Both the position numbers and the translations under genes were made by a program. From Pelomonas sp. Root1237 (GTDB lineage: Bacteria > Pseudomonadota > Gammaproteobacteria > Burkholderiales > Burkholderiaceae_C): a DNA stretch of 64,000 bases. The stretch is from positions 248,001-312,000 of the forward strand of contig NZ_LMDK01000019.1 in NCBI RefSeq assembly GCF_001425055.1, given 5' to 3'. Under the pieces are notes generated by a model. It was not told the origin of the DNA. It did not search any database and was given only the letters and a program-made list of their open reading frames with translations. Shown here one piece after another: positions 1-52,423 of the stretch (the first letter of the stretch is position 1; each line of letters starts with the position of its first letter).

Positions 1-243
1 CGTCATGCCCGGCGTGGCCTGGGCCTGGGCGGCGTAGTGCTCGCCCAAAGCAGCCAGGCGGGCGGCGGGCTCGCCCAGCACCCAGTCCTGGGCGAAGTTC
101 AGGCCGGCCAGCGCGGCGCACAGGCGGGATTCGCGCTCGACGAGCAGGGCTGTCATGCCCATCTGGCCCAGCCAGGACGCGGCGCTGCAGCCGGCGGGGC
201 CGCCGCCGAGGATGGCGACGTCGATGGAGGTGGGGTTGGGCAT
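1..243 (-). CDS. FAD-dependent oxidoreductase, thioredoxin-reductase-like (partial, cut by window edge)
   Basis: Only the first 81 codons lie in the window. The protein opens with a beta strand followed by GGGPAGCSAA at about residues 14-23, the dinucleotide-binding Rossmann loop typical of FAD/NAD(P) flavoproteins. A strand ending LLVER at about residues 33-37 then supplies the acidic residue that would bind the FAD ribose. The start is the ATG at 243; no good ribosome binding site precedes it. It lies 25 bp downstream of msrQ on the same strand and may be co-transcribed. Family membership is clear from the fold motif; the substrate is unknown because the rest is missing. Confidence 0.7.
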   Translation of the reverse strand, partial: MPNPTSIDVAILGGGPAGCSAASWLGQMGMTALLVERESRLCAALAGLNFAQDWVLGEPAARLAALGEHYAAQAQATPGMT

Positions 244-268
244 GGGGTGGTTCGGGCAGAACCACGAA

Positions 269-895
269 TTATCCCAGTCGCGCCTTTTTCGTGTTCAGGC
301 GTTTGAAGAGGCGCCACCCCAGCAGCGCGGCAAGGATCACGCCGTAGACGGCCGGCTCGGCGAAGTTGTGCTTGCCGGCGCGCATCCAGATGAAGTGCAG
401 CAGCGCGATGACGGAGACGGCGTAGATCGTCTTGTGCAGCGCCTGCCAGCGCTTGGCGCCGAGGGCCTTGATGGCCTTGTTGAAGCTCGTTGCCGCCAGC
501 GGCGCCATCAGCAGCCAGGCGGTGAAGCCCATCAGGATGAAGGGCCGCTTGGCGATGTCGCGGGCGATGTCGGAGAAATCCAGCCCCATGTCCAGCCAGC
601 CATAGGCCAGCAGGTGCAGTGAGGCATAGCTGAAGGTGAACACGCCCAGCGTGCGCCGAAAGCGCGCCAGTGCGGCCAGGCCCGTCAGCTCGCGCAGCGG
701 CGTGATGGCCAGCGTCAGCCACAGGCCGCGCAACGTCCAGTCGCCCAGGCCGCGGATGATGGCTTCGGCCGGGTTGGCACCGAGCCGGTTGGCTACGGCG
801 CCGAAGACCAGCCACGCCAGCGGCGTAAGGCACAGCAGGAAAAGCGCCGGTTTGGCGCCGCGGCTGAGCAGCGCCGCCGTCAACGCACGCCGCAT
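269..895 (-). CDS. msrQ: MsrQ, haem-containing membrane subunit of the periplasmic methionine sulfoxide reductase
   Basis: A 208-residue inner-membrane protein with about six hydrophobic segments and the ferric-reductase-like layout of the YedZ/MsrQ family. His residues in transmembrane segments (for example in YASLHLLAY and LHKTIYAVSVIALLHF) are the expected haem ligands. Known role of the family: it takes electrons from the quinone pool or a flavin reductase and passes them to MsrP, which repairs oxidised methionines in envelope proteins. Its ATG overlaps the msrP stop codon (ATGA at 895), so the two are translationally coupled. Length matches the family (about 200 residues). Confidence 0.93.
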   Translation of the reverse strand: MRRALTAALLSRGAKPALFLLCLTPLAWLVFGAVANRLGANPAEAIIRGLGDWTLRGLWLTLAITPLRELTGLAALARFRRTLGVFTFSYASLHLLAYGWLDMGLDFSDIARDIAKRPFILMGFTAWLLMAPLAATSFNKAIKALGAKRWQALHKTIYAVSVIALLHFIWMRAGKHNFAEPAVYGVILAALLGWRLFKRLNTKKARLG

Positions 896-1869
896 CAGAA
901 ATTGCGCTTCAGATCCATGCCCGCATAGAGCTGGCCCACTTGCGCTTCATAGCCGTTGAACATCAAGGACGGCCGCTTCTTGGCGAACAGGCCGTCTTCG
1001 CCAATGCGGCGCTCGCTGAGCTGGCTCCAGCGCGGATGGGCCACGGTGGGATTCACGTTGGAATAGAAGCCGTATTCCTGGGGTGCGCTCTCTTCCCAGC
1101 TGCTGCGCGGCTGCTTCTCGACGAAGCGGATCTTGACGATGCTCTTGGCCGATTTGAAGCCGTACTTCCAGGGCAGCACGATGCGCACCGGCGCGCCATT
1201 CTGGTTGGGCAGCACCTCGCCATACATGCCGAAGGTCAGCAGCGCCAGCGGGTGCATGGCTTCATCCATGCGCAGGCCTTCGAGGTAGGGCCAGTCCAGC
1301 ACCGACGAGCGCAGCCCGGGCATCTGCGCGCGATCGGCCAGCGTCGTGAATTCGACGAACTTCGCCTTGCCGGTGGGCTCTGCTTTCTTGATGAGCTCTG
1401 ACAGCGAGTAGCCCACCCACGGGATCACCATGCTCCAGCCTTCGACGCAGCGCAGCCGGTAGATGCGCTCTTCCATGGCGCTGAGCTTGAGCAGCGCGTC
1501 GAGGTCGTAGCGGCCGGGCTTGGCGCATTCGCCTTCGACGCTGACCGTCCATGGCCGGGGCTTGAGCGTGTGGGCGCGCTCGGCGGGGTCGGCCTTGTCG
1601 GTGCCGAATTCGTAGAAGTTGTTGTACGAGGTTGCATCGGCGTAGCTGGTGACTTTCTCCATCACCATCGCACTGGCCACGGCCGAGCGGGCGCCCGGCA
1701 GCTTGGGCAGCTTGCCGCCACCTGGCGCGGCCTGGGCCTGGGCCAGGGCCAGCGGTGACGCGGTTGCCAGGCCAAGGCCGGCCAGGGCAGTGCGGCGGTT
1801 CAGGTAGACCCGGCGGGGCGTGATCTCGCTGGACAGGGGCTCGTGAAGGGCGGTCGTTCGAATCAGCAT
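895..1869 (-). CDS. msrP: MsrP, molybdopterin-dependent periplasmic methionine sulfoxide reductase catalytic subunit
   Basis: 324 residues of the sulfite-oxidase/YedY family. The N-terminus carries a twin-arginine export signal ([10 protein letters not shown], arginines 25-26) and a hydrophobic stretch ending in an alanine-rich cleavage region near residue 48, so the folded cofactor-loaded protein is exported by Tat. The Cys in YRLRCVEGW (about residue 141) is the conserved molybdenum ligand. With MsrQ it reduces methionine sulfoxide in periplasmic proteins. It is the first gene of the msrPQ pair. The ATG at 1869 gives a slightly long leader before the twin arginines, as in the E. coli protein. 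Confidence 0.94.
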
Positions 1870-2096
1870 GAGGGGCTCTCGGGTCTGTGGGCTGAGGCTG
1901 GGTCGGGCCAGGACGGGCGCAACTTACACCGTCGGATGAAAGGCTGCCCTACGTCATGGCAAATCCCGCGCCCTCCACCGGCGCCGGCAAAAGGCGTGTC
2001 CTGGGCTTTGTGTTCTCGACGGTCGCTGATAAGTCGGCCTGTTCATGTTGCTTTATCGGCGTCAGGAGCGTGCGCCTTGGCGCGTTTGGTTCTGCG
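1870..2096 (+). promoter_or_regulatory. CRISPR leader and msrP upstream region
   Basis: A 227 bp gap between msrP (minus strand) and the first CRISPR repeat. It holds no credible gene. By position it is the array leader and also the promoter region of msrP. The part nearest the array is less GC-rich and holds an imperfect inverted repeat, CGCTGATAAG (2024-2033) against CTTTATCGGCG (2051-2061). A plus-strand promoter could lie here (TTGTGT near 2009 and a GATAAG-like -10 near 2028), but the spacing is poor. Leader identity rests on its position and on the terminator at the far end of the array. Confidence 0.5.
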
Positions 2097-4644
2097 GTTC
2101 CGGCCAGAGCGCATTTCCCAGCGATCTAGACTCGCATCAACGTCTTCCTACATGACGGCGGGGTTCCGGCCAGAGCGCATTTCCCAGCGATCTAGACTGG
2201 GGACGAAGTTGCACCGCGCCAGCGCGCGGTTCCGGCCAGAGCGCATTTCCCAGCGATCTAGACTCGCGGGCACCGGCGGCGCGCGGGGTCTCGTGTTCCG
2301 GCCAGAGCGCATTTCCCAGCGATCTAGACTGCTGGACACCAACACCAACGCCCTGGCCTCGTTCCGGCCAGAGCGCATTTCCCAGCGATCTAGACTCCCT
2401 GTCGATGACGATGGCGCGGTAATTCGGTTCCGGCCAGAGCGCATTTCCCAGCGATCTAGACTAACCGGGATCAGCAACCAGACCGCCACCGGGTTCCGGC
2501 CAGAGCGCATTTCCCAGCGATCTAGACTCCACGTCTGCCACTCGCATGAACTGCGCTGGTTCCGGCCAGAGCGCATTTCCCAGCGATCTAGACTCGACGG
2601 CCGCGAGGACCTCACCGGCAGCGAGTTCCGGCCAGAGCGCATTTCCCAGCGATCTAGACTCAGCCTGGTGATGTCGCGCGGCGTGATCCAGTTCCGGCCA
2701 GAGCGCATTTCCCAGCGATCTAGACTGGCAGTCGCCCGCGTCGAAGCGCCAGGCGGGTTCCGGCCAGAGCGCATTTCCCAGCGATCTAGACTTCACGGTC
2801 TTGGCATCGACGTTGATGTGCTGTTCCGGCCAGAGCGCATTTCCCAGCGATCTAGACTCTTGATGGTCTGCGGGTTGTAGCCGCGCTCGTTCCGGCCAGA
2901 GCGCATTTCCCAGCGATCTAGACTGAACGGCTACGAGGCCATGTGCGTGGTCGCGTTCCGGCCAGAGCGCATTTCCCAGCGATCTAGACTCTTCACCACC
3001 TACGCCCCCTGGCTCATGTCGTTCCGGCCAGAGCGCATTTCCCAGCGATCTAGACTTGAATGAACTTGCCGATGCCGGCGACTTCGAGTTCCGGCCAGAG
3101 CGCATTTCCCAGCGATCTAGACTCGTCGCCGAGCGCGTTCCATTGGATGTTGAGTTCCGGCCAGAGCGCATTTCCCAGCGATCTAGACTGCATCGACGTG
3201 TTCATGTTGGGCATGACCAGTTCCGGCCAGAGCGCATTTCCCAGCGATCTAGACTCGCGGCCTCGGCCATCATGTCTCTGTCGCCGTTCCGGCCAGAGCG
3301 CATTTCCCAGCGATCTAGACTGGTGGTGCGTGCCGCGGTGCTGCTGATACTGTTCCGGCCAGAGCGCATTTCCCAGCGATCTAGACTGGATCTGCAGGAC
3401 ACCCACTTGATCAATGAGTTCCGGCCAGAGCGCATTTCCCAGCGATCTAGACTGACCGCCCAGAACGCCAGCGCGCAGAACCAGTTCCGGCCAGAGCGCA
3501 TTTCCCAGCGATCTAGACTTCCAGTGGCCTGTGGCCGATACGCCGCCGAGTTCCGGCCAGAGCGCATTTCCCAGCGATCTAGACTTCCAGCCGGCCAACT
3601 GCACCTGGTGATCCAGGTTCCGGCCAGAGCGCATTTCCCAGCGATCTAGACTCCCAGACCGTGTAGCCGCCGACGGAACGCGGTTCCGGCCAGAGCGCAT
3701 TTCCCAGCGATCTAGACTCGCATTGCCAGTCGGCAGCAGAACGCCATTGTTCCGGCCAGAGCGCATTTCCCAGCGATCTAGACTGGCCGATACCTGCGTC
3801 AGCAAGGATTGCTAGTTCCGGCCAGAGCGCATTTCCCAGCGATCTAGACTCTCGCCGTGTCGCTCGAGCCTGTTGGTCAAGTTCCGGCCAGAGCGCATTT
3901 CCCAGCGATCTAGACTCTGCGAGCCAGGCCAGTACGGCGCGTATCTGTTCCGGCCAGAGCGCATTTCCCAGCGATCTAGACTCCGAATTGCTGGTTGCAT
4001 CGAAGATCGTGAGTTCCGGCCAGAGCGCATTTCCCAGCGATCTAGACTCCTGGAGCTGCGCGCGCATCACCTGGGCCTGTTCCGGCCAGAGCGCATTTCC
4101 CAGCGATCTAGACTCGGCTACAGCGACGAGCCCGACTGCGTGCACGTTCCGGCCAGAGCGCATTTCCCAGCGATCTAGACTTCCAGTGGCCGGTAGCGGT
4201 CACGCCGCCGAGTTCCGGCCAGAGCGCATTTCCCAGCGATCTAGACTCCTTGGACCCCGCGGTCAGCACCTTGTAGGGTTCCGGCCAGAGCGCATTTCCC
4301 AGCGATCTAGACTACGGGTTCGTCGGCAGTGAGCCAGAATGGCGTTCCGGCCAGAGCGCATTTCCCAGCGATCTAGACTCGCTCGCGCAGCGCGGCCTCA
4401 ACCTCACACCGTTCCGGCCAGAGCGCATTTCCCAGCGATCTAGACTCCTTTGGCAGGAACAGTACGGCTCGGCCGTGTTCCGGCCAGAGCGCATTTCCCA
4501 GCGATCTAGACTCGGCTGGATCGGCGTTGGCGGCTTCGCCTCGTTCCGGCCAGAGCGCATTTCCCAGCGATCTAGACTACCAACAAGGAGCTAAGGGGCA
4601 AGGCGATCGTTCCGGCCAGAGCGCATTTCCCAGCGATCTAGACT
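2097..4644 (+). CRISPR. Type II-C CRISPR array: 39 repeats of 36 bp, 38 spacers of 30-31 bp
   Basis: Direct reading gives 39 copies of a 36 bp repeat beginning GTTCCGGCCA and ending GATCTAGACT. I saw no variant copy, including the first and last. Spacers are 30 bp except four of 31 bp: spacers 15, 23, 31 and 35, starting at 3057, 3586, 4115 and 4380. Array strand is set by three facts. The repeat resembles the Neisseria II-C repeat in this orientation (GTT start, CATTTCNCAG core). The plus-strand RNA carries the sequence complementary to the tracrRNA anti-repeat at 9200-9224. A Rho-independent terminator follows the last repeat on this strand. No two spacers are identical, but spacers 22 and 32 are related. 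Confidence 0.99.
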
Positions 4645-4655
4645 CGGCCGGCAAC

Positions 4656-4682
4656 AACCCCTTGATTCGTCAAGGGGTTTTT
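4656..4682 (+). terminator. Rho-independent terminator of the CRISPR array transcript
   Basis: A perfect 10 bp stem (AACCCCTTGA / TCAAGGGGTT) with a TTCG loop is followed by a run of five T, starting 11 bp after the last repeat. The T-run is only on the plus strand, so it ends pre-crRNA transcription and keeps it out of the convergent cas2 gene. Confidence 0.9.
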
Positions 4683-4714
4683 GCCTTCTGGACGGGCCGA
4701 AAACGTGCGCATGG

Positions 4715-5041
4715 CTAGAACAGGTCGAATTGGTCGGGCGTTTTTTTGGCCGGCTGCTTGGCCTTGCCCTGGTAGCTGATGATGCGTTCGTACTGCTTGT
4801 CGGTGAACTGCAGGATATTGACCTTGCCGCCGGCCGGCAATGCCCCTTCGACCCGTTTGCAGTAGGTCTCTACCTGGGTGCCGCTGGTGCAAAAGCGCAT
4901 GTAGACGCTGAACTGGCTCATCTCGAAGCCCATATCCAGCAATGCGTTGCGAAACTCGGTGGCTGCGCGACGCTCGGCCTTCTCGACCACCGGCAGATCG
5001 AACATCACCACCATCCACATCAGCCGGTATCCCGTAAGCAT
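4715..5041 (-). CDS. cas2: Cas2, CRISPR adaptation endoribonuclease-fold protein
   Basis: 108 residues with the Cas2 ferredoxin-like fold. The first strand reads WMVVMFDLPV with the conserved Asp at about residue 15, followed by a helix rich in charged residues, and then QFSVYMRF. Cas2 forms the central dimer of the Cas1-Cas2 integrase that inserts new spacers. It starts 10 bp after the cas1 stop and is the last gene of the cas9-cas1-cas2 unit. The C-terminus has a short Lys/Pro-rich tail (KAKQPAKKTPDQFDLF), as in several II-C Cas2 proteins. Confidence 0.97.
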   Translation of the reverse strand: MLTGYRLMWMVVMFDLPVVEKAERRAATEFRNALLDMGFEMSQFSVYMRFCTSGTQVETYCKRVEGALPAGGKVNILQFTDKQYERIISYQGKAKQPAKKTPDQFDLF

Positions 5042-5051
5042 GGGGCGCGGC

Positions 5052-5981
5052 TCATTCGTCGGCCTGCAGCGCTGACGCCAGCGACAGCGGCAGGCCGGGC
5101 AGGGGCAGGTCCAACTTGTCCCGCTCGCCCAGGTACACCTGCGCCAGCGAAACCGCCAACCGCTGCGTGCAGACCATGACAGGGGTTGCCCCCGCAGCTG
5201 TCTGCATGTCGTCGTAGAGCGTGCGCACCAGGGCGCGCTTGGACTCGGGCGTGACTATCTCTTCGCCATTGCGGCGCAGCTGCCAGACCTTCAGATCGAT
5301 GACGGGCCGGAAGGGTTCCATCAGGTCATCGACCAGCCGCATCGCGTTGTTGTCGTGGCTGTGATGCAGGCCGATGCCGGGGTGCAGACCCGCTGCGATG
5401 ATGGCGCGGGCCATCGCAGCGCGCATCACCGTGTAGCCATAGTTCAGCAGGCCATTGACACCACCGCCCTGCTGATCTCGCCGGAAGCCGTCGCCGAACA
5501 GCAGGCCCCAGTAGCGCCGTGCGCCCTGGGCCTCCAGGTTGTCGGGGTCGCCGCTGCGCACCTTGGCGGCCAGCGCGGTCAGTGGCGCAGTGGGTGCCCC
5601 GGCGGCCTCCAGCGCGGCGGCCTGTTGTTCCAGCTTGGATCGCACAACAGCAGCCCACAGGCGCTTGTGCGTGGGCAGGCTGGCAGCGATCTGCGCCTCG
5701 ATGCGCTTGGACTGCTCGAAATTTCCCTCGATGGGCAGCAGCATGCCCACCGCGTTGTGGTTGGCCGCGCACAGCACGAACGGCGCGCCGCGCTCGGCCA
5801 GCGCCACGAGCAGGTTGTTCGTGTAGCTCAGGCCCTGGGCATTGGCGATCACGGCGGCGATGTCGTCTAGCGGCACCTGGCCGAGTTCCTTGCCCGACTC
5901 CGTGTCCTTGACCACCATGAAGCCGCGATTCATGGACAGGTGCCGGCGGTCATCGGCCACTTCGACGATGCGGCCGATCAT
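5052..5981 (-). CDS. cas1: Cas1, CRISPR adaptation integrase
   Basis: 309 residues, the usual length for type II Cas1. The metal-binding residues are visible: Glu150 in NLEAQGARRYW, His206 in PGIGLHHSHD and Glu222 in DLMEPFRPVID. It catalyses spacer integration as a complex with Cas2. The ATG at 5981 is preceded by AAGGAG at 8 bp spacing, inside the end of cas9. The gap to the cas9 stop is 5 bp, so translation is probably coupled. No cas4 or csn2 accompanies it, which places the locus in subtype II-C. Confidence 0.98.
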   Translation of the reverse strand: MIGRIVEVADDRRHLSMNRGFMVVKDTESGKELGQVPLDDIAAVIANAQGLSYTNNLLVALAERGAPFVLCAANHNAVGMLLPIEGNFEQSKRIEAQIAASLPTHKRLWAAVVRSKLEQQAAALEAAGAPTAPLTALAAKVRSGDPDNLEAQGARRYWGLLFGDGFRRDQQGGGVNGLLNYGYTVMRAAMARAIIAAGLHPGIGLHHSHDNNAMRLVDDLMEPFRPVIDLKVWQLRRNGEEIVTPESKRALVRTLYDDMQTAAGATPVMVCTQRLAVSLAQVYLGERDKLDLPLPGLPLSLASALQADE

Positions 5982-5986
5982 GCGAG

Positions 5987-8900
5987 CTACTCCTTGAAGC
6001 CGGGGTCGCGCAGCTCGCCCGCCGGCGAGACCGTGACCCGGCGGCCACGGGCTTTTTGAAGTGATCCGGCATATTTGGACAGATAGACAAACTGGTCTTG
6101 TTTGTCTCTATTGCGCGCATCTCCGTTGGCTTCGTTATGCGGCGCAAAGAAGATCTGGCCGTTACCCGTCATGTTGACGACGCGCAGCACCACAGGCCGG
6201 CCCTCGTCGTCGTCGAAGCGAACCATGTCACCGCCTTGCAGGCGCATCACCAACGGCTTGCCTGAAATGCTGCGGCTCTTCGACTGGATGTGCGCCAAGG
6301 CGGCATCTCTGCCGAACTCGCTGACCAGGCGATATGCCTCGAAGGTTGACACGACCTCGCCCTCCCATCGACCCTTGTCGTTGCGCACGATGTCCATGCA
6401 AAACTTGGGGCTGGCCACGTAGCCCTTGTAGGGCAACTGCTGACCGGCCTTGTCGCGGTGGTGGCGTTGCAAATGCTCCGGCCCGGTGAAGCCGACCATC
6501 GCCTTGGAGTCGGCTTCCTTTTCATTCGGCTTGCCGCCGCCGATGCCGCGCGTGCGCCACATGTTCTTGGGGTCGAGATGCGGCGGGCGATAGGTTGTGT
6601 CCTCGTGCATCGCGCCCTCGAAGCCATGATCCGGCTTATGGCTGACCCAGATCGAATTCACTGCGCGCTGCACATGCTCGCGATAGCTGTCCCACGGGTC
6701 GGGCATGGTCTCGACCAGCCGGTCCAGTCCTTTGCCGCGCGCGTCGGCGCTGGCCTGGGCAAAGCGCTGCAGCAGGCCCTGGTCGGTCACTGCCACGACG
6801 CAGGCATCCACCGCGTGATGCCGGTGGTCGTTGCGGTTCTTCTCGCCGTTCAATCCGAGGATGTCGTTAAGGCCGAACTTGGCGCGCAGCATCGCCGTCA
6901 TCTGCCCCGGAATCACGCGTGTGCTGGCAGGGCAGACAAGGCTCAAATACTCGCGCGCCACTCGGCTCAGGTGGCGTGTGTCGTTCAGCGCCCGGGCCAG
7001 GAAGTCCTTATCCTCCTTCAGCCACTTCTCTAAGCCGTCCGGCGCAAAGCGCTGGCGCTTGGCGCGGGGCATGCGCTCGGCGCGCATCAGGATGCCGTCG
7101 TAGTCCCAGCCTTGTCCGGCAAAGGCTTCGCGCGCGTCCCAGGGCGTGCGGTTGCCTTTGAGGCGGTTGACCAGGCGCATCGCCACGGTCTTGTTGTTGA
7201 GGCTGTCATCCAGCGTCATCGAGAACGGCAGGATGTGCTCGATCTCCACCTGTTCGCTCAACACCATGGCCGCGCTCAACTGCACGCCGCTATAGGGGCA
7301 GCGCCGGTCCGCGATGTCGAAGCTCAATTCCTCCCAGAGGATCAGCTTCTGGATGTCCGCAAGGCGCACGCGCTCATCGGCAATGCCCAGGATGGCCGCC
7401 GCGTCCTTGCGCAGCCGCTCATTGCGCTTCTGGTTCTTCGCTTGCTGCTCCTGCGTTTCGCGGCGCTGGTCCTGGCTCTGTTTGAGGTCGCGTGCCACTT
7501 CCACGATCACCTCGGTGGGGTGGCCGTAGCGCTTGATCAGCGCATTGACGACGACGCGCACCTGGTTCAGCCCGATGTGCACCGTCGGGTTGGCGATTCG
7601 GCCGAAGCGCTTTTCCGGCGTGTCATTCAGTTCGCCAGTGCCGAATCCCACATGCCGCTGCAGGTACTCGCCGTAGTAGGGCAGCTCGGGCAAGATCTCG
7701 CCGGTCGAGGCCGCGTGGCTGATGTGGCTGTGATGGTCGTAGCCGGCGGCCAGCACGGCCTTGTCGTAGGTGATGACCTCGGCGCGCATGGCCGGCAGGA
7801 TCTTGGCCAGCGCCTTGGCGCTCAGCGAGCCGTAGCCCTCGGGCAGCGCGGCATTGGCGATCTTCAGCGCGTGAGCCTCGTCTACGCCTGTGGATGTGGC
7901 CAGCCAGTCCACCAGCCGTGCTTCGCTTTCCTCCTCCTGGATGCGCATGACGATCTCGTCCTGGCGCGCCTCGCTGAAGCCGTGCCAGGCCGGGCCGAAG
8001 AAATCCTTCTTGCCGAGCAGCATGCTGGTGGCATTGCCCTTCAGCTCGGTTCGCTTGGCGTCGGCCAGGTTGAACTGCACCGTGCCCGGTAGGCCCAGCA
8101 GCTTGGGGATGGCCGTCTTGAAGGACTTGCTGCCGTCCTCCAACGCCGCCACCAGCTTGTCGCGTTGCTCAACGCTCAGTGACTCTTCCAGCAACCGGCC
8201 GCCGAGCAGACGCAGGTGGTTGACCTCCTGCAGGATGCGGAAGCGCTGCTGGCTGGGCAGGGCCAGCGGTGCGCGCGGCTCGTCGGGCTCCAGCGTGCAG
8301 CGGCCGGGGCGGACGGGACGCAAGTTGCGCTGGTGCAGCAGGCAGTCCTTCAGCGTGGCGCGGGCGGCTTCGCCGAACTGGGTGGGACTGAGTTCCGCTT
8401 GTTTGGCCCACAGCGCGTCGAACTCTGCCTCCACCATCGCGCGGTCTACATACAGGTCGTAGCTCTTGTCGACGCGCGTCTTGCCATCGTCCTTGGTGAT
8501 GCGCTGCTCGCGATAGCGGGCACGCACGGTGAGGACGTTCGGATCGCTCATGCGCCGCCATAGCAATTCGCCCACCGTCCGCGCCCTGCCATCGGCGCCT
8601 GCCGTATCAAGCTGTGCGCGCAAGCCGCCGATGGCTGCCTTCAGAGCACCGCTGTCGTTGTCCTTCCTGTCTGTGCGGCGGTTGCTCTTGAAGCCGCGGC
8701 GCTGGTTGAGATGGAAGAGCGCGCGGGCGAACTCGGCCGGCGTCAGTGCCGCGTCCAAACCCTTGGCGCGCAGCTCGTAGGGATTGAGCGTCTCCAGCGC
8801 CTTGCGGGCCGCCTCGTCAGCAGGGAATAAGTCGTGCTCGATCAGAAGCCGCTGCATGCGCGCCTTGCGCTTGAGCAACCTGTCGCGGCGTCGGCGCATG

Positions 8901-9076
8901 GCGCGAGCGTTGCGGCGCGTGACCGCCAGCGAGGAGCCGTCTTTCGGATTGCGCCCGTCCGGGAAGATGCGTACGCCGGCGCGCACGATGGCGCAAGGCT
9001 CATCCTTGGCGTTGAGTTGCACGATGGCCCAGCCGAGTGAAGTCGAGCCGAGGTCCAAAGCCAGCCGATATTTCAT
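5987..9076 (-). CDS. cas9: Cas9, type II-C RNA-guided DNA endonuclease
   Basis: 1029 residues, in the compact II-C size range. Numbering from the ATG at 9076, all nuclease motifs are intact: RuvC-I ALDLGSTSLGWAI with Asp8; an Arg-rich bridge helix at about 55-78; RuvC-II VIVEVARDL with Glu526; HNH VEIEHILPFS with Glu613-His614, and Asn628 in LNNK; RuvC-III HHAVDACVVA with His754 and Asp757. The C-terminal 250 or so residues would be the wedge and PAM-interacting region. An in-frame GTG at 9082 would add two residues but abuts the GGGAGGAG ribosome binding site; the ATG has normal spacing. Interference is predicted functional, guided by the array and the tracrRNA at 9200. The PAM cannot be read from sequence alone. 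Confidence 0.98.
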   Translation of the reverse strand: MKYRLALDLGSTSLGWAIVQLNAKDEPCAIVRAGVRIFPDGRNPKDGSSLAVTRRNARAMRRRRDRLLKRKARMQRLLIEHDLFPADEAARKALETLNPYELRAKGLDAALTPAEFARALFHLNQRRGFKSNRRTDRKDNDSGALKAAIGGLRAQLDTAGADGRARTVGELLWRRMSDPNVLTVRARYREQRITKDDGKTRVDKSYDLYVDRAMVEAEFDALWAKQAELSPTQFGEAARATLKDCLLHQRNLRPVRPGRCTLEPDEPRAPLALPSQQRFRILQEVNHLRLLGGRLLEESLSVEQRDKLVAALEDGSKSFKTAIPKLLGLPGTVQFNLADAKRTELKGNATSMLLGKKDFFGPAWHGFSEARQDEIVMRIQEEESEARLVDWLATSTGVDEAHALKIANAALPEGYGSLSAKALAKILPAMRAEVITYDKAVLAAGYDHHSHISHAASTGEILPELPYYGEYLQRHVGFGTGELNDTPEKRFGRIANPTVHIGLNQVRVVVNALIKRYGHPTEVIVEVARDLKQSQDQRRETQEQQAKNQKRNERLRKDAAAILGIADERVRLADIQKLILWEELSFDIADRRCPYSGVQLSAAMVLSEQVEIEHILPFSMTLDDSLNNKTVAMRLVNRLKGNRTPWDAREAFAGQGWDYDGILMRAERMPRAKRQRFAPDGLEKWLKEDKDFLARALNDTRHLSRVAREYLSLVCPASTRVIPGQMTAMLRAKFGLNDILGLNGEKNRNDHRHHAVDACVVAVTDQGLLQRFAQASADARGKGLDRLVETMPDPWDSYREHVQRAVNSIWVSHKPDHGFEGAMHEDTTYRPPHLDPKNMWRTRGIGGGKPNEKEADSKAMVGFTGPEHLQRHHRDKAGQQLPYKGYVASPKFCMDIVRNDKGRWEGEVVSTFEAYRLVSEFGRDAALAHIQSKSRSISGKPLVMRLQGGDMVRFDDDEGRPVVLRVVNMTGNGQIFFAPHNEANGDARNRDKQDQFVYLSKYAGSLQKARGRRVTVSPAGELRDPGFKE

Positions 9077-9081
9077 GGGCA

Positions 9082-9089
9082 CTCCTCCC
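9082..9089 (-). promoter_or_regulatory. Ribosome binding site that fixes the cas9 start
   Basis: On the minus strand GGGAGGAG ends 5 bases before the ATG at 9076 and touches the upstream GTG at 9082. Normal Shine-Dalgarno spacing therefore selects the ATG, and the GTG is unlikely to be used. Confidence 0.75.
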
Positions 9090-9199
9090 TGGAGTTCTTG
9101 TATTGATGCCGCCGGTGGATTGGACGTTGATCGCGTCTCCGGTCGTATCAGGGTTGCTCCGCAGGGAGGGCGGTAGCCACGGCGTTAGCATGCACACGT

Positions 9200-9290
9200 T
9201 AGATCGCTGGGAAATGCGCTCTGGACGCTAACAAGCTGAAAGATGCACCAAATGGAAGGCCGCGAAGTCGCAAGACGCGCGGCCTTCGTC
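9200..9290 (+). ncRNA. tracrRNA of the type II-C system
   Basis: Bases 9200-9224 are an exact 25-base complement of repeat positions 8-32. An internal loop follows, and then AAC (9230-9232) can pair with the repeat's first GTT. Downstream, GCTGAAAGATGCACC resembles the Neisseria tracrRNA segment UCUGAAAAGAUGUGCC. The RNA then forms a perfect 10 bp stem, GAAGGCCGCG (9255-9264) / CGCGGCCTTC (9278-9287), which I take as the 3' end although no T-run follows it. It is divergent from cas9. The 5' end is probably a little upstream of 9200; no convincing promoter was seen there. Confidence 0.9.
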
Positions 9291-9375
9291 CTTGTGCGGA
9301 GCAACTGTGGTCGCGGCGCTGCGACAGCGCCCCCGAGGCTCGACGGCGTGGTGGATACCCCGCCGCCTCAAACAT

Positions 9376-11601
9376 TCAGCGCGCGGATCCCGCCGGCACG
9401 TTCACGGGAACCTCCAGGATGAACGACGCACCTTGCCCAGGGCCATCGCTATGGACGCTCAAGCTGCCGCCCATCTCCTGTGCGGCCAGAACGCAGCTGT
9501 GCAAACCAAAGCCATGCCCGTTCTTGCGCGTGGTGAAACCATGAGAGAAAACGCGGGTCAGATTCTCCGGCGCGATGCCTTCGCCGTTGTCCGTCACCGT
9601 GATGCGCAGCACAGGCCCTTCCATCAAAACAGCACCGAGCGTAATGAAGGCGCGTTTGTCCGCGGTCGCGCTCAACGCTTGTTTGGCGTTGCTGATCAAG
9701 TTCACCAGTACCTGCAACACGCGATGCCGATCCAGTAAGAGAGCGGGCAAGGTCGGGTAGTTTTTTACAACATCCACTTTGTGACGCGTCAGCGCAACCG
9801 TGTGCATGCGCAGCGCGTCGTCCAGCAGTTCGTCCACCTTGGCGGATTCGACAACACGCGGCGTGCCTGCATATGACTGCTGGGTTGCGATGACCTGTTT
9901 GATATGTTCCACGCTGCCGCACAGCGCGCCCAGTTCAGTCGTTATGGCTTCGTGCTCACCCTCGAGTGTTCGAGCCAGTTCACGCAAATAGGTGGGCAGC
10001 AGCTTGCCTTTGCTGTCCTGCGTCAGGAACTGCCCCAAATCCTCGGTATGCGCATCCATCAAAGCCACGGAGCGGGCGAGTCCCTTGAGCTTGGATGCCC
10101 GCAACTGGGCGCCAATCAAGTCGGCCGATACGTTGACGCTGTTGAGAACGTTGCCCACGTTGTGCAAAACGTTGGTTGCGATCTCTGCCATGCCGGCGAG
10201 GCGTGCCGCAGTCAGCAGTTGGGCCTGCACCTCTTCAATTTTTCGCTCGGCTTCCTTCAGTTCGGATATGTTTTTTGACGTTCCGAAGGTCCCGATCAGT
10301 TGACCATGCCGGTCTCTCCAGGGGCTTTTGGTGGTGAGATACCAAACAACGCGCCCATCGGGATGGACGGTTTTCTCGCTCTTTTCGACGATGGGTTTTC
10401 CGGTCCGGAGGATTTCTTCTTCATCATGGCTGAATTCACTCGCCCTGTCCTGGCCGTAAAGGTCTGCATCGGTTTTGCCGATCACATATTTTTCAAACTC
10501 ATCCACGTTGGCCAAATGCGGCGGGAGTGCGTCTTCATCCGTGCCGGGATGTACTGCGCGGTAGCGGCTGATCGATAGTCGCAGCAGGTTATGCAGCTCT
10601 GAACGGCTTATTTTGACGAAGCGTGATTTCAAATCCTTGAAGAAGATGGAATCAGGCGAATTCTCCATCAGCGTGCTCAGCAAATCGTGGTGATATGCCA
10701 GCGCTGCTTCCGACTGCTTCAGCGCAGTAATGTCCTTGGAGATGCCGAAGGTGCCGATGATGACTCCTGCACTGTTGCGCAGCGGCATTTTGGTACTCAG
10801 CGTCCAGGACTCGGCGCGGCCATCCTTCCAGGTTTCCTTCTCCGCTTTGCCAATCATCGGTTGGCCTGTGCGCAGTATTTCCTGTTCATCCTCATAGGCG
10901 GGGCGCGCATGCTCTTCGGAAAAAAAATCGAAATCTGTCTTGCCTACCAATGCCGCCGGCGACGCGGCCCCGAATTGCAACGCCTGGGCTTTGCTGCATT
11001 TGAGAAAACGGGACTGCATATCTTTGAAATAAATATGATCGGGTGAGTTGTCCAGGAGTGTGCGCAGCAAATCTTGCTCATTGATCTGGGACGCATCCAC
11101 TGGGCTCTCTGCCGCTGTCGTCTCTGCCGACGAGTTCACGCCTTGATGCGCCTCGGCAAACTGTTGCAAATGCCACTTCTCTGTCAGGGAATGTGACAGC
11201 TGGATGACTTCGACGCGGTCAAGAGGCATTTGAAGCGTCAGCCACCTGCTATTCGTTGCTCCCATGGCTTCGAATAACGAGTCAGAGGAAGAAGCGAGCC
11301 GCTCCGCGCAAAGCACGATCTGAACTCTGGGATCAATTGCCCAAATTTGGGGGGCTATTTCGACCGCTGTCCATGCCTTCGTTTGAGAGGCGCCTATGAA
11401 TACCAAGGTATAAGGTTGTGAGGCCAGCAGGGACTGCTGCATAAGGGCAAGGCTGTCGGGGGTGTCGCGGGCGCAGTCCAGTTCGAATTTCCCTTGCGCA
11501 TGGGCATCTTCGACCAACATGTTGCGAAAGGCGCCGTGAGTGTCGGGATTGCTGTCCACGACGAGAATACGGCCCTTGTTTGGGGCAGGCCATGTTTTCA
11601 T
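9376..11601 (-). CDS. Sensor histidine kinase with pseudo-receiver and two PAS domains
   Basis: 741 residues from the ATG at 11601, chosen because longer in-frame extensions run back into the upstream kinase gene. An N-terminal receiver-like domain (about 10-140) has lost its phosphoacceptor: where the upstream paralogue has AFVDMRMP this one has VFIGASQT, with Gly70 in place of Asp. Two PAS domains follow (about 150-290 and 290-430), each with the NSPDxIxFKD opening. The phosphoacceptor His is about residue 480 in TNVLHNVGNVLN. The C-terminal ATPase domain has an N box (NLISNAKQAL), DNGEGI and GFGLH. The ligand is unknown. It sits 26 bp downstream of a second kinase and probably works with it. 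Confidence 0.85.
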   Translation of the reverse strand: MKTWPAPNKGRILVVDSNPDTHGAFRNMLVEDAHAQGKFELDCARDTPDSLALMQQSLLASQPYTLVFIGASQTKAWTAVEIAPQIWAIDPRVQIVLCAERLASSSDSLFEAMGATNSRWLTLQMPLDRVEVIQLSHSLTEKWHLQQFAEAHQGVNSSAETTAAESPVDASQINEQDLLRTLLDNSPDHIYFKDMQSRFLKCSKAQALQFGAASPAALVGKTDFDFFSEEHARPAYEDEQEILRTGQPMIGKAEKETWKDGRAESWTLSTKMPLRNSAGVIIGTFGISKDITALKQSEAALAYHHDLLSTLMENSPDSIFFKDLKSRFVKISRSELHNLLRLSISRYRAVHPGTDEDALPPHLANVDEFEKYVIGKTDADLYGQDRASEFSHDEEEILRTGKPIVEKSEKTVHPDGRVVWYLTTKSPWRDRHGQLIGTFGTSKNISELKEAERKIEEVQAQLLTAARLAGMAEIATNVLHNVGNVLNSVNVSADLIGAQLRASKLKGLARSVALMDAHTEDLGQFLTQDSKGKLLPTYLRELARTLEGEHEAITTELGALCGSVEHIKQVIATQQSYAGTPRVVESAKVDELLDDALRMHTVALTRHKVDVVKNYPTLPALLLDRHRVLQVLVNLISNAKQALSATADKRAFITLGAVLMEGPVLRITVTDNGEGIAPENLTRVFSHGFTTRKNGHGFGLHSCVLAAQEMGGSLSVHSDGPGQGASFILEVPVNVPAGSAR

Positions 11602-11627
11602 GATGGGTTGCCTTGCATGAAGTGGCT

Positions 11628-13058
11628 TCAGATATCGGACACTGGCACTTCGGCTTGCGTTTTTGTCTGTCGCACGGGCAGCGTGACGCGAAACGTGGTG
11701 CCTTGACCCACGACACTTTCCACGTCGATGCGGCCGTGGTGTTTCTGCACGATGCCGTAGGACACCGATAGCCCGAGCCCCGTGCCTTTGCCAACGGGCT
11801 TGGTGGTGAAGAAGGGCTCGAAAATATGCTTGAGCGTGTCGGGTGGTATGCCAGTGCCCGTGTCGGCCACCTCCATCCACACGTGCGCCCCTTCGGCTCC
11901 CGTTCGAATGGCGATGCGGCCACGTTTTTCACCAATGGCGTGAGTCGCATTGACCACAAGGTTCATCACCACCTGATTGATCTGTGAAGGCAGGCATTCA
12001 ATATTGGGAATGGCGCCATATTCCTTGACCAGATCGGCCTTGTACTTGATTTCGCTGGCGACGATATTCAGCGTCGAATCGATGCCCTGGTGCAGATCGG
12101 CTGATTCCCAGTCTTGCGACGAATCAATGCGGGAAAAGTCCTTCAGATCCTGGACGATCTGGCGCACCCGCACAATGCCTTGCTTGGATTCTCGTATGAG
12201 CACTGGAATGTCTTCTTTCAAGAAATCCAGCTCCACACGTTCACGCAGTGCGCGCAGATTTGCAATCACCTCGGGTGCCGTGATGCTGGTTTCTGCGTGT
12301 TCATAGGCGGCAATCAGCTCGAATAGTTTTCCGATATATCCATCCAAGGTGCCATGGTTGGAGAAGATATAGCCGATCGGATTGTTTATCTCATGCGCGA
12401 CACCTGCCGCAAGCTGACCGATGGAGGCCAGCTTTTCTGATTGGATCAATTGCCCTTCCAGATGCTTGCGCTCCCTTATCTCGTTCTGTAAAACTTCGTT
12501 GACGGTGAGCAGTTCACTGGTGCGTTCCCGTACCGCGTCTTCCAAAAGGGTGCGGTGCGCCGCCGCATCCTGCATCATTTGCCATTTGGTGGTGAGCGCC
12601 GTGGCCAGTTGGAAGACCTCGATGGAATCAAAGGGTTTTTTGAGGATCAGCAGACGGTCGGACACGTCCAGGCGCGCCAAGATATCGGCCCACGAACCGT
12701 CGGCATATGCCGTGCAAATAACGACCTGCAAACGTGGGTCGCGCTGCCATAGATGTTCAATGGTTTGCACACCATCCCAGCCGGGCGGCATGCGCATATC
12801 CACGAAGGCCATGGCATAGGGCCTGTTTTCGTGGAGGGCGGCCTCTAATCTTGAAAGCCCCTCCTGCCCCTGATAGGCAGAATCGAGTTCAAAGGCGATT
12901 TGGGGGAGCGCGCTGTCCTCTTCGCCAAACAAAGCTGCTTCCACGGCGCTGAGTTGCGCGTGTTCCGGCGCTTGCGGCATGAGGATCTTTCGAAAATCCT
13001 CGTGGATTGCAGGCATGTCATCCACCAACAGGATGCGACGGTTTTGCGGGGTCTTCAT
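11628..13058 (-). CDS. Hybrid receiver-histidine kinase
   Basis: 476 residues. An intact receiver domain lies at the N-terminus: acidic pair DD13-14, phosphoacceptor Asp87 in AFVDMRMP, Lys140 in LILKKPF. A coiled-coil linker (about 160-210) leads to a HisKA domain with His222 in GVAHEINNP and a HATPase domain ending [14 protein letters not shown]. There is no membrane segment, so it is a cytoplasmic sensor. The ATG at 13058 has GGAGGG six bases upstream. It is the first gene of a two-kinase unit. The 271 bp upstream (13059-13329) hold no gene that I can support and presumably contain its promoter. Confidence 0.87.
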
Positions 13059-13329
13059 CGCTGGCCCTCCGGATTGGGGACTGATTTTTCAGAATAATTA
13101 GAGCAGATTTCCGTAAGGGTATGTCGCGAATGAGATACTGGCTGTGCACCCGTCTTATGGGAGTGGATTGAAATTTCTGACCGATTGGAGTCATTGGGGC
13201 GCAGGGCTTCGCTCCTCCGCTCATTACTGGCTGCTGCATCCAGTGCGCACTTGGCAGCGGCCCGAAGTGGCGGTCATGGTGGGCCCATGTGCGGCCCGGT
13301 GTTCGGAAGCGGGACTTGCCGGGTTTAGC

Positions 13330-16300
13330 TCACTTGAAGTCCCGACTCTCCGTCGGCAACCGGCCCAGCAGCGGGTTGAGGTTGGTGAAGCCCTGCGCCA
13401 GCAGGTGGCGCACATCGCCGTCGCCGCGCTGCCAGACGCCTTCCACGGCCAGCAGCCGTGCGCCGAGGATGGTGTTGCGGTGCTCTTCATAGACCTTGGG
13501 CCAGACGATGACCTGCACGTTGCCGGTCTCGTCCTCCAGCGTGACGAACAGGGTGCCCTTGGCCGTCTGCGGCTTCTGCCGCCCGGTGACGATGCCGCAG
13601 GCCTTGGCGCGGCGGCCGCTCTTGACGGCGTCGAGCTGCTGGGCGCTGAGCAGCCCTTGCTTGGACAGGCGTGGGCGCAGCAGGGCCAGCGGGTGGCGGC
13701 GTAGCGTCAGGCCCGTGGCGGCGTAGTCCCACAGCACCTCCTCGCCCTCGGCGGCGGCGGGTAGTTCGAGATCATCCTCGGGCAGCAGGCTGCCCTGCAG
13801 CAGCTCCGGCATGGCATGCAGGGCCGAGGCCTGCCAGACCTGCTGGCGGCGATGGCCGGCCAGCGACGTCAGTGCATCGGCGGCGGCGAGCTGTTGCATG
13901 TCTTGCTGCGTCAGGCGGGCTCGGAAGGCCAGGTCCTGCGGGTGGGCGAATTCGCCGTCGCGAGCGCGAGCCTGCTCGATGCGCTCGGCCGCCTCGTCGC
14001 CCAGGCCGCCGACGAGGCGCAGGCCCAGCCGCACGGCGGGTTGGTGCTCGCCCGGTCGGGGCTCCAGCGTGCTGTCCTTGTTGCTGTGGTTCACGTCGAT
14101 GGCGCGCACCTCGACCTCGTGCCGGCGCGCGTCCTGAATGAGCTGGCTGGGCGTGTAGAAGCCCAGCGGTTGCGAGTTCAGCAGCGCGCACAGGAAGGCC
14201 GCGGGCTCGTGGCATTTGAGCCAGGAGCTGACATAGGTCAGCAGCGCGAAGCTGGCGGCATGGGACTCGGGGAAGCCGTAGGAGGAGAAGCCCTTGATCT
14301 GGCTGAAGATGCGCTCGGCAAACGCGTCCTCATAACCTCGTTCTCGCATGCCCTTGACGACCTTGTCGTAGTACTTCTCCAGCACGCCGGGGCGCTTCCA
14401 CGCGGCCATGGCACGGCGCAGCTGGTCAGCCTCCCCGGCGCTGAAGCCCGCGGCGATCATGGCCACCTGCATGACCTGCTCCTGGAAGATGGGCACGCCC
14501 CGGGTGCGCCACAGGGCTTCCTTCAGCGCCTCGCTGGGGTACTCCACCTGGTCTGCCGGCAATGCGCGGTTCTTCAGATAGGGGTGCACCATGCCGCCCT
14601 CGATCGGCCCGGGGCGGACGATGGCGACTTCCACGACCAGGTCGTAGTAGTCGCGCGGCTTCAGCCGCGGCAGCATCGACATCTGGGCTCGCGATTCGAT
14701 CTGGAACACACCGATGGTGTCGGCCTTGCAGATCATGTCGTAGGTGGCGGTGTCGTTGTCGGGGATGGTCAGGTCGATGGCCGTGCCGCGCATCGGGTTG
14801 ACGAGATCGAAGCAACGCCGGATGGCGCTGAGCATGCCCAAGGCCAGCACGTCGACCTTCATCATCTTCAGCTCGTCGATGTCGTCCTTGTCCCACTCGA
14901 TGACGCTGCGGTCCTTCATCGTCGCGTTCTCGATGGGCACGAGGCGCTCGAGCGAGCCTTGCGTCAGCACGAAGCCGCCCACGTGCTGGGAGAGGTGGCG
15001 GGGCAGCCCGTTGAGCTGGCGGCCCAGGGTGATGAGTTGCTGAAGCCGCGGATCGTCGTCCGGCAAGCCAAGCTGCTGCAGCAGCTCGATCCGATGTTCT
15101 TCGGGCAGCACCTGGGTGGACCAGCCGCTGTGGTCATTGCTCATCACTTCGAGCTGCGCCTCGCTGAAGCCCAGCGCCTTGCCGACATCCCGGATCGCGC
15201 TCTTGGGCCGGTAGCAGATGACGACGGCCGTCAGCGCGGCACGGTCGCGGCCGTATTTCTTGTAGAGGTGCTGGATGACCTCCTCGCGGCGCTCATGCTC
15301 GAAGTCGACGTCGATGTCGGGCGGTTCGTTGCGCTCGCGGCTGATGAAGCGCTCGAACAGCAGCGTGCTGCGGTCGGGGTCCACCGATGTGACGTGCAGG
15401 CAGTAGCAGACGACGCTGTTGGCGGCTGAGCCGCGACCCTGGCAGAGGATGCCGATGCTGCGCGCGAAGTCGACCACATCGGCAACGGTCAGGAAGTAGT
15501 GTTCGTACGCCAGCTCCTCGATCAGTTCCAGTTCGTCCTCGATGCGGCGCTTGAATTTGTCGGGCACACCGCCCTTGGCTTCTGGCCAGCGCTTGTAGGC
15601 ACCGGCATAGGTCAGGTCGCGCAGGTGCTGGCGCGGCGTGCGACCGGCAGGCACAACCTCGCTGGGGTAGCGGTAGCTGATCTCGTTGAGGCTGAACGTG
15701 CAGCGAGCCGCCACCTGCGTCGTCTCTCGCATCAACGCTTGCGGATAGATCTGCGAGATCCGGTAGCGGCTGCGCAGATGGCGCTCGGCGTTGGGCTGCA
15801 GGTCGAAACCGCACTCGGCCACCGTGCGGCCCAGGCACGTGGCCGTCATCACGTCCTGCAGCGCCTTGCGCGAGCGCACGTGGAAGTGCACGTCACCGGC
15901 GGCAACCAGCGGCAGCGCCGTCTCCTCGGACAGCGCCTGCAGCCGCTGCAGCCACAGCGCATCGCTGGCCTCGCGCAGCAGCTCGACGGCGATCCAGGCG
16001 CGGCCGGCGAAATGGCGCAGCACCCAATGCGCCGCCGGCGCCAGCTCGGCATCTGGGGCCTCGCGCGGCAGCACGAGCAGGGCCAAGCAGTCGGACAGTT
16101 TCTCGGGTGAGATCTGGCGCCAGTGCAGCGTGTACTCGCCTTTGACCGGGCTGGCACGCCGCAGCCGGGTGATGAACTGGCTGAGATTGCCGTAGCCGTT
16201 GAGGTTCTGCGCCAGCAGCACGAGCTTGAAGCGCGGCGTGCCGGTGTCGTCGCGCACAAGGAACTCGCTGCCGATCAGCAACTGCATCAGCTGCGGTTGC

Positions 16301-16671
16301 GCAATGTCGTCTTCGGTCTGGCCCGCCTCGCGTGCAACCTCTTTCAGGGCGTGGTGCGCTGCCTCGCGCATCTCCCGCAATTGCTTGTGCGCGCGCACGA
16401 CGCCCGCCAGCGAGCATTCGTCGGTGATGGCCAGCGCTTCGTAGCCCAGGTCGCAGGCACGCTCCACCAGTTCGGCCGGCTCGGACGCGCCACGCAGGAA
16501 GCTGAAGGCCGACAGGCAGTGCAGCTCGGCATACCGCGGCACGTCGGTGCGCGAGCCGGGCTGGGCCCGTTGCCACCCATCGGCGGCGCGGCGCAGGTCG
16601 GCTTCCGAGGCGATTCCCTGCTCGCGCAGCATCGCCAGCCGCTCGTCGCGGTCCGACATCGGCGGCGTCAT
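13330..16671 (-). CDS. dnaE2: DnaE2/ImuC, error-prone DNA polymerase III alpha subunit
   Basis: 1113 residues. An N-terminal PHP domain begins YAELHCLSAFSFLRGAS, followed by the polymerase III alpha palm with the catalytic acids in PDIDVDFEH, then helix-hairpin-helix and OB-fold regions (KGTLFVTLEDETG). It is the polymerase of the ImuA-ImuB-DnaE2 mutasome, which copies past lesions during the SOS response and causes mutation. The ATG at 16671 overlaps the imuB stop (ATGA), so translation is coupled; longer in-frame starts lie inside imuB and are unlikely. As last gene of the operon it should share the LexA control at 18928. Confidence 0.95.
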   Translation of the reverse strand: MTPPMSDRDERLAMLREQGIASEADLRRAADGWQRAQPGSRTDVPRYAELHCLSAFSFLRGASEPAELVERACDLGYEALAITDECSLAGVVRAHKQLREMREAAHHALKEVAREAGQTEDDIAQPQLMQLLIGSEFLVRDDTGTPRFKLVLLAQNLNGYGNLSQFITRLRRASPVKGEYTLHWRQISPEKLSDCLALLVLPREAPDAELAPAAHWVLRHFAGRAWIAVELLREASDALWLQRLQALSEETALPLVAAGDVHFHVRSRKALQDVMTATCLGRTVAECGFDLQPNAERHLRSRYRISQIYPQALMRETTQVAARCTFSLNEISYRYPSEVVPAGRTPRQHLRDLTYAGAYKRWPEAKGGVPDKFKRRIEDELELIEELAYEHYFLTVADVVDFARSIGILCQGRGSAANSVVCYCLHVTSVDPDRSTLLFERFISRERNEPPDIDVDFEHERREEVIQHLYKKYGRDRAALTAVVICYRPKSAIRDVGKALGFSEAQLEVMSNDHSGWSTQVLPEEHRIELLQQLGLPDDDPRLQQLITLGRQLNGLPRHLSQHVGGFVLTQGSLERLVPIENATMKDRSVIEWDKDDIDELKMMKVDVLALGMLSAIRRCFDLVNPMRGTAIDLTIPDNDTATYDMICKADTIGVFQIESRAQMSMLPRLKPRDYYDLVVEVAIVRPGPIEGGMVHPYLKNRALPADQVEYPSEALKEALWRTRGVPIFQEQVMQVAMIAAGFSAGEADQLRRAMAAWKRPGVLEKYYDKVVKGMRERGYEDAFAERIFSQIKGFSSYGFPESHAASFALLTYVSSWLKCHEPAAFLCALLNSQPLGFYTPSQLIQDARRHEVEVRAIDVNHSNKDSTLEPRPGEHQPAVRLGLRLVGGLGDEAAERIEQARARDGEFAHPQDLAFRARLTQQDMQQLAAADALTSLAGHRRQQVWQASALHAMPELLQGSLLPEDDLELPAAAEGEEVLWDYAATGLTLRRHPLALLRPRLSKQGLLSAQQLDAVKSGRRAKACGIVTGRQKPQTAKGTLFVTLEDETGNVQVIVWPKVYEEHRNTILGARLLAVEGVWQRGDGDVRHLLAQGFTNLNPLLGRLPTESRDFK

Positions 16672-29864: not shown

Positions 29865-29882
29865 TCTCTCAAGCCCATGAAA

Positions 29883-29910
29883 AAGGGAGGCCGCGGCCTC
29901 CCTTTGCTTT
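29883..29910. terminator. Bidirectional terminator between the DUF6622-like gene and the tricorn-like protease
   Basis: A GC-rich palindrome, AAAGGGAGGCCG / CGGCCTCCCTTT, has T-rich tails on both strands: five T on the minus strand, TTTGCTTT on the plus strand. It serves both convergent genes. Confidence 0.8.
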
Positions 29911-33248: not shown

Positions 33249-33387
33249 GGGGCTCTCCTGATGAGGGTCGCCATTGTGTTGTTAGGGGAATGGAGGGCGA
33301 TTCGTCACATCGGGTGAATCCGTAGAGCCTCTGAGCGCGTAACAGCGCTCAGATGCCAAGACGGCATTGCCATACAGGATGCCCCCG

Positions 33388-52322: not shown

Positions 52323-52423
52323 TGGGAGATCAGGGGCGGCGCATTCTAGGAGGGGCGGCTGCCTTCCCGGCCCGGGCGCCAAGCCGCCGGTGAAAGTCTG
52401 TAGCCGGGTTCGAGTTCAAGGAA

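Follow-up and report, generated by a model that had tools for sequence, protein, structure and literature searches.

An apparently complete chromosomal type II-C CRISPR-Cas9 locus in Pelomonas sp. Root1237, with candidate natural single guide RNAs in its relatives

A stretch of 64,000 nucleotides (nt) of the Pelomonas sp. Root1237 genome (contig NZ_LMDK01000019.1, positions 248,001 to 312,000; hereafter, the window) carries what is, with a probability of about 0.93, a complete chromosomal type II-C CRISPR-Cas9 (clustered regularly interspaced short palindromic repeats and CRISPR-associated protein 9) adaptive immune locus. The sequence shows that the genes are there, that the catalytic residues are in place and that the RNAs can pair, while expression, RNA processing, spacer acquisition and cleavage are expected by analogy with characterised II-C systems; that the system functions is what we infer from its intact parts. 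The locus is ordinary, one more case of an already known type of system, and alone amounts to one more compact Cas9. The original prediction had described a complete II-C locus, and match counts, profile scores and RNA pairing bore out each part of it, from the array through cas2, cas1 and cas9 to the trans-activating CRISPR RNA (tracrRNA):

2097..4644, plus strand: CRISPR array with 39 identical 36-nt repeats (GTTCCGGCCAGAGCGCATTTCCCAGCGATCTAGACT) and 38 spacers of 30-31 nt, by exact-match count
4656..4679, plus strand: terminator-like hairpin of 10 pairs with a T-rich tail, directly after the last repeat
4715..5041, minus strand: cas2, 108 residues; TIGR01573 at 62.7 bits (cut-off 24.5), best PADLOC model Cas2_II
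5052..5981, minus strand: type II cas1, 309 residues; TIGR03639 at 230.6 bits (cut-off 120), best PADLOC model Cas1_II
5987..9076, minus strand: cas9, 1029 residues, ATG at 9076; TIGR01865 at 581.7 bits (cut-off 100), with HNH_4 and RuvC_III
9186..9191, plus strand: candidate -10 hexamer of the tracrRNA, TAGCAT, 16 nt before TGGGA; placed by eye against about ten relatives and missed by the promoter scan
9198..9296, plus strand, both ends estimated: tracrRNA with anti-repeat at 9200-9227, core GCTAACAAGCTGAAAGATGCACCAAATGG and terminal hairpin at about 9255-9287

In the working model, Cas1 and Cas2 would add 30-nt spacers to the array, and the array and tracrRNA would be transcribed on the plus strand and the cas operon on the minus strand. 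Repeat and anti-repeat would then pair, and Cas9, loaded with the dual RNA, would cut spacer-matching DNA beside a protospacer-adjacent motif (PAM).

The spacers are 30 nt long in 34 of 38 cases and 31 nt in 4 of 38. No further copy of the repeat was found elsewhere in the 6.43-Mb genome, allowing up to three mismatches. The scan that returned the hairpin after the last repeat called 10 terminator-like sites, against 5.6 expected in shuffles. Spacers 22 and 32 have 25 of 30 bases in common and, read by eye on the reverse strand, encode near-identical peptides, which suggests that the same spot was sampled in two related elements.

The three cas genes are all open frames. The protein length given earlier for Cas9 was reproduced from the ATG, and the six positions aligned are intact, in line with what had been claimed for its motifs: D8, E526, H614, N628, H754 and D757, which we take to be the RuvC and HNH catalytic residues, are all present in the alignment. 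Across 39 aligned proteins, the window's among them, each of the six is identical in 38 or all 39, the lone exception being a gap at D8; some of the 38 relatives were entered twice, from two collections. Identity to these relatives is 60-83% in region 490-780 and 33-51% in region 800-1029, on the PAM side. The Cas9d profile (NF049971) gave 100.5 bits, under its curated cut-off of 375. The best match in the PDB scored 234 bits, and the PDB matches include 6jdv and 6kc8, presumably Nme1Cas9 from the type II-C system of Neisseria meningitidis; the NMENI model, in turn, is matched by Cas1 of the window. The meningococcal repeat carries an extended -10 element. Unlike it, the window repeat ends in TAGACT without TG, and across the clade repeats end in -10-like TAGACT, TAGAAT or TATAAT, with no -35 element or TG noticed.

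Four flanking genes were scanned (msrQ, msrP and two histidine kinases). Neither csn2 nor cas4 was among them, no search of the whole genome for these two having been made, and the locus was therefore filed as type II-C. Between the array and the tracrRNA, the only frames of at least 80 residues are cas genes or frames overlapping them.

The 28-nt anti-repeat is 96% complementary to the listed repeats, and its first 25 nt (9200-9224) are the exact complement that had been predicted. Folding the repeat with the tracrRNA in silico, as had been proposed, gave a duplex of -55.0 kcal/mol, far below the -35.2 of the strongest pairing among 500 random 46-nt stretches drawn from positions 10000-63900 of the window. 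A hairpin rich in G+C closes the fold of 9190-9300, which was equalled by 4 of 200 shuffles (z -2.25). The tracrRNA tail is common to 40 distinct relative sequences; six of its 10 predicted consensus pairs are kept through two-sided changes, all six in the terminator hairpin, and three pairs hardly vary. By eye, about ten relatives have a -10-like hexamer 16-18 nt ahead of TGGGA. An Rfam scan of 1-14000 gave one chance-level match (expectation value, E, 0.22) and no tracrRNA family. The array and tracrRNA were placed on the plus strand from the anti-repeat complementarity, the order of anti-repeat, tail and hairpin, and the terminator-like site after the array; from the pairing we infer that both are transcribed from it. 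The strands are as originally described, with the guide RNAs flanking the minus-strand protein genes. The available text of PMC3936727 gives the type II-C array as transcribed opposite to the cas operon.

The II-C system of Bordetella pseudohinzii, as the accessible part of PMC4624362 describes it, is alike in arrangement. It has a cas9-cas1-cas2 operon, a divergent tracrRNA upstream of cas9, a downstream array with 36-nt repeats and 29-30-nt spacers, and a small Cas9 (3,117-bp gene), and it is known from a single species, the others of its genus lacking it. Unlike the window array, its array has 22 repeats, of which two are named as variants. That locus has a GC content of 56% in a 66.5% genome, compared with 63.6% in 2097-9290 and 67.2% in the rest of the window. 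Its RNA and processing were shown by reverse transcription polymerase chain reaction, whereas the window locus is known from sequence only.

The locus is sporadic within the genus (Cas9 matches in 2 of 20 genomes, its own included), and this Cas9 is not rare in the family: at E <= 1e-20, it matched in 42 of 399 sampled genomes, its own included. Eight of these matches are distant (29-39% identity), and one is a fragment of 55 residues. The tail, searched for with a covariance model, was matched in 3 of 20 genomes of the genus, 39 of 399 of the family and 14 of 349 of the order, the window's own genome included each time. Genomes G008 and G016 have an empty site, in which 65 and 76 nt replace window positions 1932 to 9375 and 9379, respectively, between the same two genes. 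We read this, together with the relic in G006 described next, as a locus once present at this site and lost later in relatives; for G008 and G016, gain in the window's lineage may apply instead.

A tracrRNA relic is found in genome G006 (G006:C5:68976-69053; loci L173 and L129), where no Cas9 match was found: this tail shares 97% identity with that of the window across 72 nt, lacks the anti-repeat and lies beside the same msrP gene. By eye, UUGG-ACG-CCAA near its start could form a hairpin of its own. Eight genomes had a tail and no Cas9 match (G006, G037, G083, G139, G295, G312, G317 and G382), with weak tails in G139 (E 1.2e-5) and G312 (E 6.2e-5). G295 was rejected as a case of an orphan tail, a contig end cutting its Cas9 N-terminus (34 residues, 73.5%), and the tail of G317 keeps, by eye, an ordinary anti-repeat. 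Array repeats are joined directly to a tracrRNA or its tail in G037 (L170, about 3881-4066), as is one degenerate repeat in G139 (L168, reverse complement, about 2947-3060). No cas genes were found in these two fetched stretches, and the joints look as if the cas genes had been deleted. On the Limnohabitans sp. TEGF004 plasmid (NZ_AP027057.1, about 51122-53402), an apparent array of the same repeat family lies beside an annotated cas2.

Sequence comparison with relatives makes it probable that some members of this II-C clade have evolved natural single guide RNAs that would lead Cas9 to the promoter region from which they originate, repressing the guide RNA or the divergent gene, or the two together. 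Such an RNA would join a guide to the tracrRNA tail through a repeat-like half or a short hairpin. The guide would end in 9-11 nt that match a promoter-region site followed by NGRRAT, where Cas9 would bind without cutting. In four loci, the guide-like stretch and the tail are separated by a sequence that starts with GTTCCG:

L086 (G303), reverse complement, about 4853-5070: fused guide; its last 11 nt recur, ending 58 nt before GTTCCG; flank AGGGAT
L172 (G295), 737-963: fused guide; its last 10 nt recur, ending 57 nt before GTTCCG; flank GGAAAT
L004 (Lysobacteraceae NML07-0707), reverse complement, about 9327-9530: fused guide; its last 9 nt recur, ending 61 nt before GTTCCG; flank AGAAAT
L174 (G343:C16), 6167-6318: fused guide; its last 9 nt recur, ending 45 nt before GTTCCG; flank AGAAAT

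All four self-target flanks fit NGRRAT, and, if the fused guides are real, these natural target sites predict a PAM of that form for the four relatives' Cas9s. Each seed has one upstream recurrence, with two copies (guide and target) in its fetched locus. Resemblance to the repeat is clear in L086 (score 42) and L172 (score 44), where the best of 40 shuffles reached 21 and 22; the repeat-like part of L004 is short and not significant alone (24 vs 24 for the best shuffle), and L174 has a short hairpin instead, missed by the repeat look-up, from which the final 35 nt were excluded. The fused tail of L174 is a second one, about 1 kb from the normal tracrRNA of G343; a frame that by eye looks NYN/PIN-type lies between the two (L097/L174).

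Under the rule that 9 or more nt immediately preceding a GTT must recur upstream, 4 of 65 pattern matches were positive, the same four loci, vs 5 of 1300 single-base shuffles. The rule was drawn up after the four had been noticed by eye or in the repeat look-up, which makes it a check and not a blind test. Ten of the 65 matches are not tails, and nine further tails tested gave no match, so that the count becomes 4 of 64 tails; L187 and L106 (no tail under the pattern) and L016, L046, L114, L117, L129 and L134-L165 (copies) were left out of it. Guides swapped between loci matched over 3-6 nt, against 9-11 nt at home. The cas-less joined loci L170 and L168 showed no guide-end recurrence, and fusion alone therefore does not produce a self-target. 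The L004 and L174 regions are alike by eye (AGAAATTTTT, TATA, AATT), and the two may not be independent. Between the two, however, guide and target have changed in step at 4 of 9 seed positions, a pattern that selection for pairing would produce.

By eye, a -10-like hexamer lies within about 35 nt after the target on the guide strand: TATAAT in L086 and L174, TAGAAT in L004 and TAAAGT in L172. The promoter scanner called none of these four. It called an opposite-strand promoter in L174, whose -35 overlaps the target, another in L172, whose -10 abuts it, one promoter per strand just beside the target in L004, and none in L086; with one or two calls against 0.3-0.5 expected, this signal is weak. 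In L086, L004 and L172, the divergent gene is cas9, which starts 279, 167 and 643 nt from the PAM, respectively; in L174 it is another frame, and cas9 is 1054 nt away. Neither the recount nor the promoter scans altered the odds that we give to fused guides, since the seed match and its controls remain valid.

The closest known counterpart is the tracr-L of Streptococcus pyogenes, which, in the available portions of PMC8616872 and PMC11417352, also has a guide fused in cis and a self-target beside a PAM-like motif in a promoter region; that system is II-A, whereas the four relatives are II-C and the window has no fused guide. Guide and target in the four loci agree at only 14-15 of 24 nt, which, by analogy with the 11-nt tracr-L match in the same part of PMC8616872, would suit parking without cutting. 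The accessible text of that 2021 review places tracr-L in no subtype other than some II-A, and that of PMC11417352 concerns II-A. A meningococcal II-C small CRISPR-associated RNA (scaRNA) has been proposed to act like a single guide RNA, its DNA target not having been found (PMC13431127, available part), and scaRNAs have been predicted in type II systems (PMC6199352, available part). Among the papers listed from a literature collection with few subscription papers and no preprints, none showed a self-targeting natural single guide in a II-C system, which is weak evidence of novelty. If the fused guides are real, self-repression of Cas9 by natural single guide RNAs is not confined to type II-A, and II-C systems could hold down their own RNA or nuclease in a counterpart of the II-A tracr-L feedback. 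The PAM guess for the B. pseudohinzii Cas9, WGR in the excerpted PMC4624362, agrees with the four flanks at positions 2 and 3 and with three of four at position 1.

Several results count against a working immune system in the window. A sigma-70-like promoter scan of 1870-9400 called none, the tracrRNA hairpin, whose T tract is short, was not called as a plus-strand terminator, and some of the six covarying tail pairs are also broken, in the worst case in 10 of 41 sequences. Searched with the window array, 41 phage records gave only E >= 0.2 among the best 40, and 28 plasmid records gave one apparent other array (H41, a Limnohabitans plasmid match overlapping an annotated cas2 place) and otherwise E >= 0.2. 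The array matched 29 of 399 family genomes, mostly at CRISPR repeats, a 27-nt match in G076 spanning a spacer/repeat border. Viral-contig scans with spacers 22 and 32, and with four wobble patterns whose reading frame was guessed, returned 0 matches. With no promoter or tracrRNA terminator called, the locus could be intact in sequence yet silent, or it could have lost its activity recently, for instance together with the tracrRNA promoter, and relatives do lose the system, as the relic beside msrP in G006 illustrates. We consider this unlikely: all 39 repeats are identical, with no decayed copy, the three cas genes are intact, and the TAGCAT hexamer stands, by eye, at the same place as the hexamers of relatives.

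It is far less likely still that the window's own tracrRNA is tracr-L-like, a fused guide with a self-target. The four relatives with fused guides and 9-11-nt self-targets raise the idea, as does a possible pairing, noted by eye, of GTTAGC (9184-9189) with GCTAAC (9228-9233). However, the window has no upstream repeat-like sequence (score 15; best of 40 shuffles 22), the guide-end duplication rule gave no match, and its genome holds a single tracrRNA tail at E <= 0.01. A complete, ordinary II-C immune locus is the reading that we retain.

No PAM is given for the window Cas9, because no convincing protospacer was found, and borrowing one from a relative was rejected because, at 33-51% identity, the region on the PAM side differs too much. 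Besides arrays and anti-repeats, the window array reached at best E 0.003 among the matches listed for the 20 genus genomes. In its own genome, the best matches outside the array were the anti-repeat and a 24-nt match of 96% spanning a spacer/repeat border (15 of 79 candidates scored). Arrays of five relatives gave 0 phage matches; against plasmids, they gave insertion-sequence matches and another array (best 15 of 17 records) and, in a second set of three records, another array and cas2 places. Among the matches listed, 750 pooled spacers searched against the fetched loci gave array rows and short partial matches, many at places fetched for that reason. The array of G316 has two candidate protospacers in G248 (28 and 27 of 30 nt identical; 3' flanks CGTGCT and TGCCCT). 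These flanks do not fit NGRRAT and agree with the self-targets at just two positions, 2 (G) and 6 (T); the candidates may be chance, or the G316 Cas9 may use another PAM.

Array spacers were also rejected as self-regulators. The last 10 nt of spacer 21 equal 2087-2096 (minus strand), just before the first repeat, with flank AACGCGCC, and spacers 2, 12 and 15 each have one further copy of their final 12 nt in the window. Hand estimates put the chance of these matches at about 0.03 and 0.3, respectively, and no flank fits NGRRAT; we take them as chance.

Elsewhere in the window, a frame of 1146 residues at 29877-33314 (plus strand) has no Pfam match at 1e-10, is overlapped by a 1112-residue frame on the other strand and adjoins a DUF4331 protein (33367-34917). 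A DNA polymerase III alpha family protein, presumably DnaE2-like, is encoded at 13333-16974 (minus strand) and adjoins the histidine kinases; what appears by eye to be the same polymerase gene follows the tracrRNA relic in G006.

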